A DNA stretch of 64,000 nt, from positions 1,054,001 through 1,118,000 of the forward strand of contig NZ_CP036426.1 of NCBI RefSeq assembly GCF_007752535.1, given 5' to 3'. Source of the DNA: Tautonia plasticadhaerens (GTDB lineage: Bacteria; Planctomycetota; Planctomycetia; Isosphaerales; Isosphaeraceae). The notes under the pieces were generated by a model. That model made no database searches. It was not told where the DNA came from and was given only the letters and a program-made list of their open reading frames with translations. The position numbers and the translations under genes were made by a program. Positions 972 through 11,638 of the stretch are shown here, piece after piece; position 1 is the stretch's first letter, and every line of letters starts with the position of its first letter.

Positions 972-1997
972 GTGAAGCGCGTCGCCGTCGTCGGGGCCAC
1001 CGGGGCCGTGGGAGAGCGGATGGTCCGCCTGCTGGAGGAGCGCGCCTTCCCGGTCGGCTCGATCAAATTCCTGGCCTCGGCGCGGGGCGCCGGCGAGGAC
1101 CGGGTGGTCCGGTTCCGGGGGGAAGACGTCCCGGTCGAGCCGGTGAGCGAGGAGGCGTTCCGGGGCGTCGAGATCGTCCTGTCGAGCACCCCGGCCTCGG
1201 TCTCGAAGCAGTGGAGCCCGGTCGCCGCCGCCGCCGGGGCCGTGGTGATCGACAATTCCAGCGCCTTCCGGATGGACCCCGAGGTCCCGCTGGTCGTCCC
1301 CGAGGTCAACGCCCACGACATCCCGAGGCACCGGGGGATCATCGCCAACCCCAACTGCTCGACCATCCAGATGGTCGTCGCCCTGAAGCCGATCCACGAC
1401 GCGGCGACGATCCGGCGGGTGATCGTCAGCACGTATCAATCGGTCTCCGGCGCCGGGCAGAAGGGGCTGGTGGAGCTGGAGGAGCAGCTCGAGGCGCTGG
1501 TCCACCGGAGGGACTGGCCCGCCCCCTCCAAGTTCTCCCACCCGATCGCCGGCAACTGCCTGCCCCAGATCGACGCCTTCCTCCCCGACGGCTACACCAA
1601 GGAGGAGCGGAAGATGATCGACGAGACCCGGAAGATCATGGGGAGCGAGGCCATCGAGGTCGTCCCCACCTGCGTCCGGGTCCCGGTGCCGTACTCGCAC
1701 AGCGAGTCGATCCTCGTCGAGACCGACCGGCCCCTGTCGGCGGACGAGGCCCGGTCCCTCTGGGCGAGTGCGCCCGGCGTGACCGTGGTCGACGACCCCG
1801 AGCACGGCCGATACCCCCTGGCCGCCGACGCCGAGGGGCATGATGATGTGTTCGTCGGCCGGATCCGGCGCGACCCGTACCGCCCGAACGCCCTGCTGTT
1901 CTGGTGCGTCAGCGACAACCTCCGCAAGGGGGCCGCGACCAACGCCGTGCAGATCGCCGAGGAGCTGGTCAAGCTGGAGGTCGGCACCCGGGGCTGA
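972..1997 (+). CDS. asd: Aspartate-semialdehyde dehydrogenase
   Basis: NADPH-dependent reduction of aspartyl-4-phosphate to aspartate semialdehyde, the branch point to lysine/diaminopimelate, threonine and methionine; cytosolic homodimer. The 341-residue length is normal. The nucleotide-binding GATGAVG lies at 8-14, the catalytic cysteine is Cys129 in NPNCST, and a SVSGAGQKG segment follows near 155. The CVRVPVPYSHSES segment carries the downstream substrate-binding part. The start is GTG at 972 with GAGAGGAG about 10 bases upstream. truA follows after about 50 bases on the same strand, so the two are probably co-transcribed. Confidence 0.96.
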   Translation: MKRVAVVGATGAVGERMVRLLEERAFPVGSIKFLASARGAGEDRVVRFRGEDVPVEPVSEEAFRGVEIVLSSTPASVSKQWSPVAAAAGAVVIDNSSAFRMDPEVPLVVPEVNAHDIPRHRGIIANPNCSTIQMVVALKPIHDAATIRRVIVSTYQSVSGAGQKGLVELEEQLEALVHRRDWPAPSKFSHPIAGNCLPQIDAFLPDGYTKEERKMIDETRKIMGSEAIEVVPTCVRVPVPYSHSESILVETDRPLSADEARSLWASAPGVTVVDDPEHGRYPLAADAEGHDDVFVGRIRRDPYRPNALLFWCVSDNLRKGAATNAVQIAEELVKLEVGTRG

Positions 1998-2046
1998 GCC
2001 GATCCGACCGTCCGATCGCCCTCCCCCCGACGCCGCCATCGGCCCG

Positions 2047-2883
2047 ATGCGGAACCTCAAGCTGACGATCTGCTACGACGGCTCCGACTTCCACGGCTGG
2101 CAGCGCCAGCCCGGCCTGCCGACCGTGCAGGAGGCGCTGGAATCGGCCGTCGAGCAGATCACCGGCGAGCGGCCGGACGCCACGGCCAGCGGCCGGACCG
2201 ACGCGGGGGTCCATGCCCTCGGCCAGGTGGTGAACTTCTACACGGCGTCGAAGCTGGGCCCCGGCGTGCTCCTCCGGGGCATCAACGCCAAGCTGCCGAG
2301 GTCCGTCCGGGTTCTGGAGGCCGAGGAGGTGCCCCAGGCCTTCCACGCGACGCTCGACGCCAGGAGTAAGCGGTACCGATACGTCATCGACAACGCCCCC
2401 ATCCCCGACCCCTTCCGCCTCCGCTACTGCTGGCACGTCGGCACCGGGCTCGACGAGGAGCGGATGCACCGGGCCTCGCAGGCGCTGAAGGGCCGGCACG
2501 ACTTCCGGAGCTTCGAGACGGAGTGGCCGAACCGGACGAGCAGCGTCCGGACGATCTTCGACATCGGGGTGGCCCGAGACGGCCCGGTCGTGACGCTCGA
2601 GGTGGAGGCCGACGGGTTCCTCTATAACATGGTCCGGTCGATCACGGGGACGCTCGTGCTAATCGGCGGCGGCCGTCGCCCCGAGTCGTTCGCCGCCGAG
2701 GCCCTGGCCGCCCAGAGCCGTAAGGACGCCGGGCCGACCGCACCTCCGCAGGGGTTGTTCCTGCGATACGTCCGGTACGACCGCACCTCCGCAGGGGTTG
2801 TTCCTGCGATACGTCCGGTACGACCGGGCGCCCGCCCCGATCCCCCCCGTCGAGGAGGGCCGCTGACGCCCGGAGCCCCATGA
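2047..2883 (+). CDS. truA: tRNA pseudouridine synthase A with altered C-terminus
   Basis: TruA converts uridines 38-40 of the tRNA anticodon arm to pseudouridine. The catalytic aspartate is Asp52 in GRTDAGVHALGQ; FYTASK, RSKRYRY and the FLYNMVRSI core are all present. The ATG at 2047 is chosen because family similarity begins at MRNLKLTICYDG, although the frame is open further upstream. A 43-bp tandem duplication (2736-2821) near the 3' end shifts the frame. One copy alone would end the protein YDRAPAPIPPVEEGR with a stop at 2864-2866. With two copies it instead reads about 30 unrelated Arg/Pro-rich residues to a TGA at 2881-2883, overlapping the ATG of the next gene. The catalytic core is upstream of the change, so activity is probably kept. 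Confidence 0.94.
   Translation: MRNLKLTICYDGSDFHGWQRQPGLPTVQEALESAVEQITGERPDATASGRTDAGVHALGQVVNFYTASKLGPGVLLRGINAKLPRSVRVLEAEEVPQAFHATLDARSKRYRYVIDNAPIPDPFRLRYCWHVGTGLDEERMHRASQALKGRHDFRSFETEWPNRTSSVRTIFDIGVARDGPVVTLEVEADGFLYNMVRSITGTLVLIGGGRRPESFAAEALAAQSRKDAGPTAPPQGLFLRYVRYDRTSAGVVPAIRPVRPGARPDPPRRGGPLTPGAP
2736..2821 (+). repeat. 43-bp tandem duplication inside truA
   Basis: Bases 2736-2778 are repeated exactly at 2779-2821. Because 43 is not a multiple of three, the second copy is read in another frame and the original stop (2864-2866) is missed. Deleting one copy in silico restores a conventional TruA ending 14 bases before the next gene. Confidence 0.95.
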
Positions 2884-4088
2884 AGATCGTCCACGTGATC
2901 ACCCGACTGATCCTCGGCGGCGCCCAGGAGAACACCTTGCTGACGGTCGAGGGGCTGCACCACCGCCACCGAGACGACGTCACCCTGATCACCGGCCCCG
3001 CCGAGGGGCCCGAGGGGGACCTCTTCGACCGGGCCGAACGGGGCGGGCTGAAGGTCGAATTGATGCCGGAACTGGTCCGGGCCATCCGGCCGTCGACGGA
3101 TTTGAAGGCGTATCGGCTGCTCCGCCAGGCGTTCCGGAGGCTCCGGCCCGACGTCGTCCACACGCACAGCTCCAAGGCCGGGATCGTCGGCCGGGCGGCG
3201 GCCTGGGACGAGCGGGTGCCCCTGGTCGTCCACACGATCCACGGCCTGCCGTTCGGCCCCTCGGAAAAACCCTGGCGGAACCGGCTCTACGTCGGCCTGG
3301 AGCGCTGGGCCGCCCGCCGTTGCCACGCGATCGTCAGCGTCTGCGACGCCATGACCGAGCAGGCGCTCGCCGCGGGCGTCGGCCTTCCCGAGCAGTACGA
3401 GACGATCTACAGCGGCATGGAGGTCGGGCCGTTCCTCGACCCCCCCCGGCCCCGGTCCGAGGTCCGCCGGGAGCTGGGCCTGCCCGACGACGCCGTCGCC
3501 TTCGCCACCGTCGCCCGGCTGTTCGAGCGGAAGGGGCACGAGGACCTCCTGGGCATCGCGCCGGGGGTCCTGGAGGCGAATCCGAAGGTGCGGTTCGTCT
3601 GGATCGGCAGCGGCATCCTCCGGGACCGGCTGGAGGCCGAGGCCGACCGGCTCGGCGTCCGGGACGCGATCACCTTCACCGGGCTGGTGCCGCCGGGTCG
3701 GATCCCGGAACTGCTGAATGCCTGCGACGCGGTCCTGCACCCGAGCTACCGGGAAGGGCTCGCCCGGGTCCTGCCCCAGGGCCTGATCGTCGGCCGCCCG
3801 GCGATCAGCTACGACGTGGACGGGGCGAGGGAGGTGGTCACTCCCGAGACGGGCATCCTCGTCCCGTTCCTCGACCGCGGGGCCCTGGCCGACGCGATCC
3901 TCGACCTGGCCGGCAACGACGACCGGCGCCGGGCCCTCGGTCGGGAGGGCCGACGCCGGTTCGCCGATCGGTTCCGGCACGAGGTCATGGTCGACCGGAT
4001 CCGGTCACTCTACGAGCGTCGGCTCGGCTCCCCGGCCCTCGACGCGACGGCCCCGGGCGACGCTCGGGGCGGGGCCGCCGTCGGGTGA
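2880..4088 (+). CDS. Glycosyltransferase family 4 (GT-B fold)
   Basis: A 402-residue protein of GT4 type, moving a sugar from a nucleotide-sugar donor to a glycan or lipid acceptor at the cytosolic membrane face. The N-terminal acceptor domain begins MKIVHVITRLILGGAQENTL with the usual GGAQ loop, followed by VVHTHSSKAGIVGR and HTIHGLPF. The donor domain has ATVARLFERKGHEDLL and the EGLARVLPQGL segment; the second glutamate of the EX7E pattern appears as glutamine. The ATG overlaps the truA stop (ATGA), so it is translationally coupled to truA. Its 3' end overlaps the convergent membrane transferase gene by 84 bases. Donor and acceptor cannot be told. Confidence 0.9.
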   Translation: MKIVHVITRLILGGAQENTLLTVEGLHHRHRDDVTLITGPAEGPEGDLFDRAERGGLKVELMPELVRAIRPSTDLKAYRLLRQAFRRLRPDVVHTHSSKAGIVGRAAAWDERVPLVVHTIHGLPFGPSEKPWRNRLYVGLERWAARRCHAIVSVCDAMTEQALAAGVGLPEQYETIYSGMEVGPFLDPPRPRSEVRRELGLPDDAVAFATVARLFERKGHEDLLGIAPGVLEANPKVRFVWIGSGILRDRLEAEADRLGVRDAITFTGLVPPGRIPELLNACDAVLHPSYREGLARVLPQGLIVGRPAISYDVDGAREVVTPETGILVPFLDRGALADAILDLAGNDDRRRALGREGRRRFADRFRHEVMVDRIRSLYERRLGSPALDATAPGDARGGAAVG

Positions 4089-5885
4089 GATCGAGCCGGG
4101 TTTCGGCCGGATCACGGCGAGGGTCAGCTCCTCGTTCTTGAACCGCTCGATGTTGAAGCCGCGGATCGTGCCGCGCTCCTCCACCTCCAGCCGGGGGTGC
4201 TGCCGGAGCGCCTCGACCTCGACCGGCAGGAGTGCCGAGACGAGCGGCCCCTCCCGGCGGGCCATCAGGTCGGCCCCGGCCCGGCCGAGCAACTCGGGGA
4301 CGGGGTGGCCGATCGAGTAGACGATCCCCGGCGGCTTGAACGAGGCCAGCACCGGCACCGCCCCCTCCTCCCGCTCGACCTCGTCGAGGGCCGCCGCCAC
4401 CTTCTGGGGCAGGCGATAGGGCTCGACGCTCGGCAGGAACGCCGCCCCGAAGATCAACAGCGCCGCCGCCCACGACCCGACCAGGGCCGAGGCCGCCCGC
4501 TCCGCCGACCCGCCCCGGAGGCGTTCCACGGCGTAGAACGTCCCGACCCCCACCACGGCCGAGAACGCCAGGCACGACCACCGCAATCCGCCCGGGAACG
4601 CCACCGCCCCCGCCAGCGAGCCGACCGTGAGCGCCACCCCCAGCCCGGCCAGCAGGCCGAGCGAGGTGCCGCCCAGCGTCCAGCGCCGGAGGTTCACCTC
4701 CGACCTCGACAGCGCCACCACCAGCCAGCCCACCACAAGGGCGCAGGCCGGGTAGGCCGGCAGGTAATAATGGATGATCTTGGTCCGGGCCACCTCCAGC
4801 AGCAGGAGTGGCCCGACGATCCACCCCAGCACGAAGGCCGCGGCCATCGACGCCTTCCGACGCCTCCAGAGCCCCGCGATCCCCGCCGGCAGCAGGGCCG
4901 ACCACGGGTAGAGCAGCGGGATCGTCAGGGCGACGTAGTAGCCCGGGAACCCGCCGTGGGTCTCGATCGACTCGGTCGCCCGCTTGATGACGTGGTAGCC
5001 CCAGGCGACGCTGAAGAACGCCCCCTCGCTGGCGATCCCGATGGCGACGTACCAGGGCAGGGCGATCGCCAGGAACAGCAGCACCCCCCAGTTGCTCGCC
5101 AGCCATCGCCCGGCGACCCGGGCCGTCAGCTCGACCGCCGTGATCGCCGAGGAGAACAGCCCGGCGATCCCCCCCCGGGCGATCGCCTCCCGGAAGCGGA
5201 GCCCCTCGTCCAGGCCCGAGGCGTCGGGCCAGAGCGGGGCGAGCAGGCGTCGGTAGCCGAGCGTCGGCCCGCCGAACCACCAGGTCAGGCCCGAGGCGGC
5301 CACGATCAACGCCGGGCCGACCGGCCCCTTGGTCAGCACCGAGAGGGCCATGCAACTCCAGAAGGCGGCCGTCGCCAGCCGGCTGGGCTTCTGCGACAGC
5401 TCCCAGATCGCCCACTGGGCGCCGACGAACCAGACGAGCAGGGTCGCGTCGGTGGTCGCCAGCTTCGACTCGGCCACCATGATCGGCGCCGTGGCCAGGG
5501 CCAGCGCCGCCCACCTCCCCTCCTTCGGGCCGAACAGGCGACGGCCGAGGGCCCAGGTCATCAGGCAGACGCCCATGCCCGCGACGGAGGAGACCAGCCG
5601 GGCGCCGAACGGGTTGTCGCCGCCCAGGGCGGTGCCGGCGAGCATGAGCCAGTAGATGAGCACCGGCTTGTGGTAGCGGGGCTCGGCGTTGAACGTGGGG
5701 TTGATCAGGTCCCCGCTCTGGCGCATCTCCCGGGTGCAGCCGGCGTACCTCGGCTCGTCCCGGTCCCAGAGGCTGGCCCGGCCGTTGCCGGCGAGGTTCA
5801 GCGACAGGGCCAGCAGGCCGATCAGGGCGGCCTCTCGCCAGGGGAGGCGGCGACCGGCGGCCTCGGCCGGGTCGGCGCCCGTCAT
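4005..5885 (-). CDS. ArnT/PMT-like membrane glycosyltransferase (GT39/GT83)
   Basis: A polytopic transferase of the dolichyl/undecaprenyl-phosphate-sugar-using superfamily, which glycosylates lipid or protein on the outer face of the cytoplasmic membrane. An N-terminal TM is followed by WDRDEPRYAG (about 40-49), whose DE pair is the catalytic signature of the family. PRYHKPVLIYWLM and many hydrophobic segments follow. The ATG at 5885 (MTGADPAEAAGRR) is preferred over an in-frame start at 5972 because the added 29 residues are charged and unlike the family. This gives 626 residues, of which the last 28 codons overlap the convergent GT4 gene. With GT4 next door, a glycan or lipid-decoration role is likely. 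Confidence 0.88.
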   Translation of the reverse strand: MTGADPAEAAGRRLPWREAALIGLLALSLNLAGNGRASLWDRDEPRYAGCTREMRQSGDLINPTFNAEPRYHKPVLIYWLMLAGTALGGDNPFGARLVSSVAGMGVCLMTWALGRRLFGPKEGRWAALALATAPIMVAESKLATTDATLLVWFVGAQWAIWELSQKPSRLATAAFWSCMALSVLTKGPVGPALIVAASGLTWWFGGPTLGYRRLLAPLWPDASGLDEGLRFREAIARGGIAGLFSSAITAVELTARVAGRWLASNWGVLLFLAIALPWYVAIGIASEGAFFSVAWGYHVIKRATESIETHGGFPGYYVALTIPLLYPWSALLPAGIAGLWRRRKASMAAAFVLGWIVGPLLLLEVARTKIIHYYLPAYPACALVVGWLVVALSRSEVNLRRWTLGGTSLGLLAGLGVALTVGSLAGAVAFPGGLRWSCLAFSAVVGVGTFYAVERLRGGSAERAASALVGSWAAALLIFGAAFLPSVEPYRLPQKVAAALDEVEREEGAVPVLASFKPPGIVYSIGHPVPELLGRAGADLMARREGPLVSALLPVEVEALRQHPRLEVEERGTIRGFNIERFKNEELTLAVIRPKPGSISPDGGPAPSVARGRRVEGRGAEPTLVE

Positions 5886-6130
5886 CGCGGTGTCGGTGGT
5901 CGGATCGGGCGCGTCCAAAGGCTCCCTCCCTCGGAGTCGCGGCGGATCGGGTCGGCGGTTGCGTCCTTGCAAGAGCGGGGATCCCCCCGCCCGCCCGTCC
6001 CCGAGCGGCGAGTCGTCTCGACCCGGCCGGTCGGCATGGCCTCGGCCTCTCTATAATCGATCGGCCCGATCCTGTTGAGCCCGTTTCCCGAGATCCCCGA
6101 TCGACCCGACGCCCGAGGGGGCCGACCGCC

Positions 6131-7417
6131 ATGTCCGTCGCCGAGACCGAGGCCGAGGCCCTGCTCCGCCACGGCGCCCTGTATCCGATCCGCCAGGGGC
6201 TCCTCCCGGTCGACGGCGGTCCGCTCGCCTTCGTCGGGATCAAGCACGGCGCCGCCTCGATCTACCTCGGGGACGAGCCGAGCTACCATTTCGACCTCGA
6301 AGGCCGGTGGCATCGCTGCTACTCCTCGCCGAGCCACTACCTCCGGCGCCTCGACGGCTCGACCCAGGCGATCGACCGCCCCCGGGTCGGCCGGAACATG
6401 AGGCTCGACCGCCGGACGCTCGACCCGTCCGAGGCCGATCGGCTCGACGCGTCGATCCGGGCCATGGCGCTGGGCCTCGCCGACCGGATCGCGTCCGGTT
6501 CGGTCACGCTCGTCGACCCTCCCCCTCCGGCCCGGCCGATCGGCGCCGACGGCCTCCGGACGCTCCTCGGTCGCGTCTCGGCCTGGGACGCGTCCGCCTG
6601 GGCCGAACACCGGCGCCGATATCGCTCCACTTATGGCCCGAACCCGTTCCTCCCACCCGACGGCCTCGACGCCCTGGTGCTCCAGGCCACCGTCGGCCCC
6701 CCGGCTGGCGGGGGTCCGGTGCACCGGAACCCAGAGGCGTTCGAACGCCATTGCCGGGACGTGGCCGGGCTGCTCGGCATGGGGGTCGTGCCCTATCGGT
6801 CGCTGTTCCTCGCCGGGCCGGATTCCCTGAGGAGGCCGGCCGATGAGGTCGAGGCGTCCCTCCGGATCGCCCGGGCCGTCTTCCCCCTCGCCGAGGGTCC
6901 CGCCCCCCCTCGCCGCTCCGACCTGCCGGTCGAACGCCCCCATCGGGAGGGGATCCACGCCTTCGTCGGCCGGTCGAGCGGGCCGATCCCTGGGCCCGAA
7001 GACTGGGGGCGGTTCCGGGCGCTGGGGCTCCGTCGCGTTGCGGTCGGCATCGAGGCCGGGGACGACCCCGGGTCGGACGACACCACCACCCCCCCGGAGG
7101 ATGTGGGCCCGATCGCTTCCGGGGCGAAGGGGGCGGGGATCGCCGTCAGCGTGGTGACCTGGATTGGCCCCGACGGGATCCCCGACCGGGACGGGTCGAC
7201 CGCCTCGGCGATCGCCCTGGTCCGGTCGCTTGGGCTCGGCAAGGGGGACCACGTCTACCTCGTCGGCGGCGAGGAGCGTCCCGGGGCCCCCCCCGATCGC
7301 AGGGCCGCCGGCCGGGGATCGGCTCGGGAGGCAGAGCTGATGGAGGGCCTGATCTCGCTCCGACGATCCGACGGGGTCAAGGTACTGCCATATCTCGTCT
7401 CCAAGCAGGGATTCTGA
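6131..7417 (+). CDS. Radical-SAM-like protein lacking the iron-sulfur cysteines
   Basis: A 428-residue protein not recognised from its first 165 residues. From YGPNPFLPPDGLDALVLQAT (168-187) it follows the layout of a radical SAM subfamily in which the sequence after LQAT is a CxxxCxxC cluster. Here that place reads VGPPAGGGPVHRN (188-200) with no cysteine. The downstream family pattern is kept: YRSLFLAGPDSL (222-233), the HAFVGRSSG segment, a LGLRRVAVGIEAGDDPGSD beta-alpha unit and VSVVTWIGPDGI. Only Cys63 and Cys208 exist in the whole protein, so a 4Fe-4S cluster bound in the standard way is not possible. A TATAAT hexamer at 6052-6057 may be its -10 box. Likely a pseudoenzyme with the barrel fold; the fold call is from pattern memory and not computed. 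Confidence 0.75.
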   Translation: MSVAETEAEALLRHGALYPIRQGLLPVDGGPLAFVGIKHGAASIYLGDEPSYHFDLEGRWHRCYSSPSHYLRRLDGSTQAIDRPRVGRNMRLDRRTLDPSEADRLDASIRAMALGLADRIASGSVTLVDPPPPARPIGADGLRTLLGRVSAWDASAWAEHRRRYRSTYGPNPFLPPDGLDALVLQATVGPPAGGGPVHRNPEAFERHCRDVAGLLGMGVVPYRSLFLAGPDSLRRPADEVEASLRIARAVFPLAEGPAPPRRSDLPVERPHREGIHAFVGRSSGPIPGPEDWGRFRALGLRRVAVGIEAGDDPGSDDTTTPPEDVGPIASGAKGAGIAVSVVTWIGPDGIPDRDGSTASAIALVRSLGLGKGDHVYLVGGEERPGAPPDRRAAGRGSAREAELMEGLISLRRSDGVKVLPYLVSKQGF

Positions 7418-8562: not shown

Positions 8563-8749
8563 TCGGTGGCGTCGCTTCGGGAGCGTGTCTGGGAAACGCG
8601 ACCGATCCTAACCTCCCGGCCGGCCCGCCGCACCCCGAATCCGGGGAGGTCGGGGTCGGCCCGGTCGACGGCGGCCGGGTCGGGGTAGAATGGGGAGAAT
8701 CGCGTCGGGACGGGACGAACTCCGAGCTGATCCGGGTGGCAGGCAACGC

Positions 8750-11638
<2,889 letters not shown>

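Follow-up and report, generated by a model that had tools for sequence, protein, structure and literature searches.

A radical SAM homologue without cluster cysteines, kept across Isosphaeraceae as a probable pseudoenzyme lineage

Introduction

What is left of a radical SAM protein when the cysteines that should hold its 4Fe-4S cluster are missing? Many enzyme families have well-known pseudoenzymes, and a gene of Tautonia plasticadhaerens raises the question for this one. It lies at positions 6131-7417 (forward strand) of the window, the 64,000-nucleotide stretch of DNA analyzed here, in a genome of 9.4 Mb. From its ATG start it encodes 428 amino acids plus a stop, and the product is a two-domain radical SAM homologue without cluster cysteines. 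An earlier note, made from the sequence alone, assigned the protein to the radical SAM family and proposed that it may belong to a pseudoenzyme lineage. It named two outcomes that would speak against this, namely a predicted fold other than a radical SAM barrel and a frameshift that hides the cysteines.

Results

The protein contains cysteines only at residues 63 and 208, the two that the earlier note had counted. The site of the lost cluster motif spans residues 188-200 (6692..6730, forward strand), where VGPPAGGGPVHRN follows LVLQAT just as had been quoted, and where cousins read GCxxNxCxFCxxYRxxxFR. The flanking segments were also described correctly as keeping the family order, with LFLAG (residues 225-229) and then VGIEAGDD (residues 305-312) downstream of the motif site. 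The expected spacing had to be corrected: CxxxCxxC had been assumed, whereas the closest cysteine-bearing relatives have CX4CX2C (GCxxNxCxFCxxYR). A frameshift does not account for the absence, as all three forward frames of the gene are free of a C-X(3-6)-C-X2-C motif, while alignments with orthologues span its whole length and contain 0 internal stops. Frameshift and sequencing error were rejected on the basis of the full-length orthologues, the lack of a motif in other frames and dN/dS below 1.

The fold of the C-terminal half was predicted with AlphaFold2 from an alignment of the window protein and 23 relatives, giving a model of the full protein with a mean pLDDT of 88.7 and a pTM of 0.87. 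By AlphaFold2, Foldseek and VIA, residues 179-428 (6665..7414, forward strand) form a radical SAM-like partial barrel. The top solved structure in Foldseek is the radical SAM methylase MgmA (9ccb, E 8.6e-05), and the best 50 of 1000 chains realigned by VIA are all radical SAM proteins, with Z of 10.3-12.5 over ~200 residues within 179-428. Viperin, MqnE, Elp3, MgmA (9ccb) and biotin synthase resemble the window protein in this partial barrel (Z 11.9-12.5, rmsd 3.7-4.8 Å, ~200 residues) but differ in having a 4Fe-4S cluster held by cysteines, and share only 8-16% identity with it. Against PF04055 the window protein scores 12.6 bits, under the 29.5 cut-off, as does the orthologue L062 (19.4 bits), and the orthologue L056 passes at 35.0 bits. 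The barrel fold and the L056 Pfam match therefore indicate that the last 250 residues derive from the radical SAM superfamily. The family assignment of the earlier note is thus upheld by structure prediction and fold search, with the qualification that the window protein is a radical SAM superfamily descendant by fold that stands outside the radical SAM enzymes, as their defining motif was tested for and is absent. NCBIfam and PHROGs searches of the window protein returned no family. A search of the sequences of solved structures placed the artificial protein SAKe6FE at the top, a repeat match that was set aside; true radical SAM proteins follow it.

In this clade more has been lost than the three cysteines: the F, Y and R that surrounded them are also gone, as is the acidic residue at 229, in the motif that comes next. 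That motif, of GGE type and placed after the second strand, is represented by LFLAGPDSL (residues 225-233; 6803..6829, forward strand), the counterpart of FLADGDAL or FLGEANAL in cousins; in FLAGPDSL of the window protein Gly 229 replaces the acidic residue, as it does in 89% of the clade. Other positions are kept in most orthologues, namely PP 175-176, Q185, G306, E308, G-x-GG and H356. The segment GIEAGDD (residues 306-312; 7046..7066, forward strand) corresponds to the GVESGD motif; its E308 is present in the window protein as in 80% of the clade, and the GxES and G-x-GG elements are both retained in 26 of the 35 orthologues. New conservation is found as well: in 22 of the 35 a loop of the type G-[HD]-x-x-G-R-x-F can be recognized as a replacement, and G229, D231 and D379 have become conserved at 86-91% in the clade. 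Tautonia copies have no such loop and additionally lack K318, H356 and GAGG. In the window copy this further decay reads as GPDG (residues 346-349; 7166..7177, forward strand) where others have GAGG, together with K318 to T and H356 to S.

Orthologues are present in 42 of the 45 Isosphaeraceae genomes searched, with the genome of the window counted. The genomes without one are G024, which is 68% complete, G029, which has another gene at the site, and G020, whose weak match proved to be an unrelated peptidase-like ORF. The cluster motif is absent from 35 of 35 orthologues examined, so its absence is not due to chance; one cysteine in total is found in 2 of these proteins and two in 11, and none of the 35 has three cysteines within 20 residues of each other. 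In a barrel tree built without the motif columns and left unrooted, a single branch (100/100) separates 29 cysteine-less rows from 35 cysteine-bearing planctomycete rows. Although cysteine-bearing cousins were extracted by motif, this step removed nothing except orthologues of this gene and a single fragment of a truncated contig, which came up twice; the contrast between cousins and orthologues is therefore real within the fetched loci. Whether the loss is common to a clade, a check that the earlier note had proposed, can thus be answered with a single, fully supported clade, which together with the 35 motif-less orthologues lends support to its suggestion of a pseudoenzyme lineage. Since the cluster motif is, to our knowledge, universal among active members of the superfamily, the simplest account would be that the clade lost it once, at its base, with the direction of loss read by parsimony from an unrooted tree; the motif-bearing cousin L076 comes from one MAG. 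Three MAG records titled Candidatus Kuenenia stuttgartiensis (L071, L073, L075) carry genes that group within Isosphaeraceae, and their bins are probably mixed or wrongly labelled.

In other planctomycete groups the cousins have the sequence LILQATxGCxxNxCxFCxMYRxKxFRVR, with CX4CX2C spacing. Those of the two-domain subfamily (L076/L077, L078-L091) share the N-terminal domain, the barrel and the order LQAT, FLxxxxAL, GxES, G-x-GG with the window protein, but differ in that GCxxNxCxFC (CX4CX2C) is present, the PF04055 cut-off is passed and no GT39 gene is paired nearby. L076, encoded in the MAG of a groundwater planctomycete, shares the two-domain architecture but with an intact GCAYNSCTFC motif, and aligns with the window protein over nearly its full length at ~27% identity; the ancestor was therefore probably a normal radical SAM enzyme. 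A further set of proteins (L092-L106, ~300 aa, annotated as 'radical SAM protein') has a homologous barrel with GCSYNxCTFCxMYRxKxFRVR intact, but is without the N-terminal domain and forms a separate long branch in the barrel tree. This set is widespread and uncharacterized, and is spaced CX4CX2C instead of CX3CX2C. NCBIfam matches of the cousins are weak, general to radical SAM and far below cut-off, and the neighbors of the cysteine-bearing two-domain genes, as delimited by a rough gene caller, are diverse and suggest no pathway. A phylum search with L076 as query (E 1e-10) found no cousins in the same class outside Isosphaeraceae among the listed genomes, and the Tautonia genome itself contains no cysteine-bearing copy of the two-domain subfamily.

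Selection was estimated from dN/dS by a simple counting method. Close orthologue pairs give about 0.17-0.4 overall, which argues against a dead gene, and in pairs above 70% identity the ratio is below 0.45 in the N-terminal domain and the barrel alike; purifying selection on the barrel is scarcely weaker than that on the N-terminal domain. In Tautonia, identity to the nearest relative is 69% for the N-terminal domain versus 57% for the barrel. The protein is probably long-kept and non-catalytic rather than the product of a broken gene.

The N-terminal domain (residues 1-155; 6131..6595, forward strand) was missed by the earlier note; in Tautonia its conservation exceeds that of the barrel, and elsewhere it stands alone. 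It has a conserved YHFDLEGRW core and is predicted to fold as a beta-meander with a long helix (pLDDT 95). No solved relative was found by Foldseek at E below 0.15, and VIA gave Z of at most 5.1; the lack of a clear PDB relative for this predicted domain does not show that its fold is new. In other families of Planctomycetia the domain occurs by itself, in ORFs of ~160-190 aa (L032-L040) without a Pfam family, and these share the domain with the pseudoenzyme but have no barrel and other gene neighbors. One of them, L034 (7809-8309, reverse strand), is located between SDR-like and prs-like genes. Among the standalone genes only L033 has a radical SAM gene nearby as a possible partner, and this arrangement is not conserved. 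In a tree of the N-terminal domain, the Isosphaeraceae domains (99/97) have the standalone proteins (100/98) as their sister group, on a joint branch of 96/89, and L076/L077 are the nearest cysteine-bearing relative with weaker support (88/78). An apparent relict is found in G022 (L156 5401-6633, reverse strand), where the N-terminal domain is conserved, the C-terminal half reaches just 8 bits with the profile of the family and no GT39 gene adjoins. These forms suggest that the N-terminal domain outlived the enzyme; the opposite order, in which a pre-existing N-terminal domain was fused later, is also conceivable for the standalone proteins.

The gene has a consistent neighbor in an ArnT-like GT39 glycosyltransferase gene (4005..5972, reverse strand), which is found beside the pseudoenzyme in 27 of 27 Isosphaeraceae loci tested, always upstream and divergent at a distance of 76-330 bp. 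In the window the two starts are separated by an intergenic region of 158 bp (5973..6130), in which no sigma-70-like sites were found. Beyond the GT39 gene, synteny with a GT4 glycosyltransferase gene (2880..4088), truA (1840..2883) and asd (972..1997), all on the forward strand, is conserved in most loci. Close GT39 homologues (E 1e-60) are restricted to Isosphaeraceae among 99 relatives. The pairing has exceptions in G022, which has the gene without an adjoining GT39, and in G029, which has GT39 without the pseudoenzyme at the site. G029 carries a repeat-rich ORF there (L159 217-2001, reverse strand), beside a retained GT39-GT4-truA-asd block. Downstream in the window is a large Hsp70-like ORF (8690-11638, 982 aa) that is conserved in Tautonia (L046-L048). 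From gene order, the GT39 pairing gives a faint hint of cell-envelope glycosylation.

Discussion

The protein answers to the description of a pseudoenzyme, being a homologue of an enzyme family without the conserved catalytic residues whose gene is kept by selection. We therefore favor, with reasonable confidence, an Isosphaeraceae pseudoenzyme lineage in which the N-terminal domain carries the function and the barrel serves as a non-catalytic scaffold or binding module. By computation, the lineage goes back to a two-domain radical SAM protein, cousins of which survive with their cysteines in other Planctomycetota. A single event ahead of the divergence of the Isosphaeraceae sampled here removed all three cluster cysteines together with their loop, as read by parsimony, and purifying selection has acted on the protein ever since. 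Binding of the catalytic 4Fe-4S cluster and reductive cleavage of SAM would no longer be possible, and a binding or scaffold role would have replaced them. The N-terminal domain would carry the function that was retained, probably by recognizing what the ancestral enzyme had as partner or substrate, on a barrel that may give non-catalytic support while slowly eroding. A part in envelope glycosylation together with the divergent ArnT-like GT39 transferase might be added, at a much lower level of confidence. To judge by the sequences, the 26 of 35 orthologues with GxES and G-x-GG may still have a nucleotide or SAM site, in which case the barrel would be more than a scaffold in most of them.

There are other possible explanations for the missing cysteines. 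The one that deserves most attention is that the cluster loop was replaced and not merely lost, leaving the barrel with an active site for new, non-radical chemistry or as a sensor of SAM or a nucleoside. The replacement loop, the newly conserved G229, D231 and D379, the retained GxES and G-x-GG elements and the purifying selection on the barrel are all in its favor; however, Tautonia lacks the loop along with K318, H356 and GAGG, the G022 barrel is unrecognizable and sister families manage without a barrel, so that we regard it as unlikely. Within the radical SAM superfamily at large, non-standard cysteine arrangements are known from Dph1-Dph2 (PMC11048331) and ThiC (PMC4389238), and would be the model for an enzyme with unusual ligands, or with its cluster held by cysteines from another part of the chain or from a partner protein. 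This is very improbable here, given the cysteine counts of the 35 orthologues and the loss of the aromatic and basic residues that flanked the motif.

The low PF04055 score of the window copy and its further loss of motif residues might suggest that the gene is decaying into a pseudogene or was misread in sequencing, but orthologues from ~20 genera have full-length open frames, dN/dS is well under 1, gene order is conserved and other frames contain no cysteine motif; we give this hardly any credence. It is just as far-fetched that the fold is an unrelated TIM-like barrel without radical SAM kinship. The Foldseek list does include some barrels of type I dehydroquinase and of aldolase, but the best 50 of 1000 VIA-realigned chains are radical SAM only, L056 exceeds the PF04055 cut-off, and the alignment with motif-bearing L076 runs the full length, N-terminal domain included. 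More speculative than the pseudoenzyme lineage, though a possibility that we take seriously, is a staged dismantling across a planctomycete class, from an active two-domain enzyme through the cysteine-less barrel and a relict barrel (G022) to the N-terminal domain alone. The N-terminal domain would then be a new, widespread module that takes over the function, in Isosphaeraceae with the ArnT-like transferase.

A function independent of catalysis has been described for a radical SAM fold in E. coli QueE, whose part in division control does not depend on catalysis and whose catalytically dead R27A variant still acts (PMC11142719). QueE differs in that it keeps its cluster and its enzymatic role, whereas in the Isosphaeraceae clade the chemistry would, from the sequences, be gone lineage-wide. 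In the literature searched we found no precedent for a radical SAM lineage that is without the cluster and yet kept across an entire bacterial family; a term count in a pseudoenzyme review (PMC10211241) gave no occurrence of 'radical SAM'. Annotation by fold alone would label these proteins as radical SAM enzymes, and calls for caution. Because this family offers, next to its active cousins, orthologues without the cysteines, a relict form and the N-terminal domain by itself, the role of a radical SAM scaffold without radical chemistry becomes testable.
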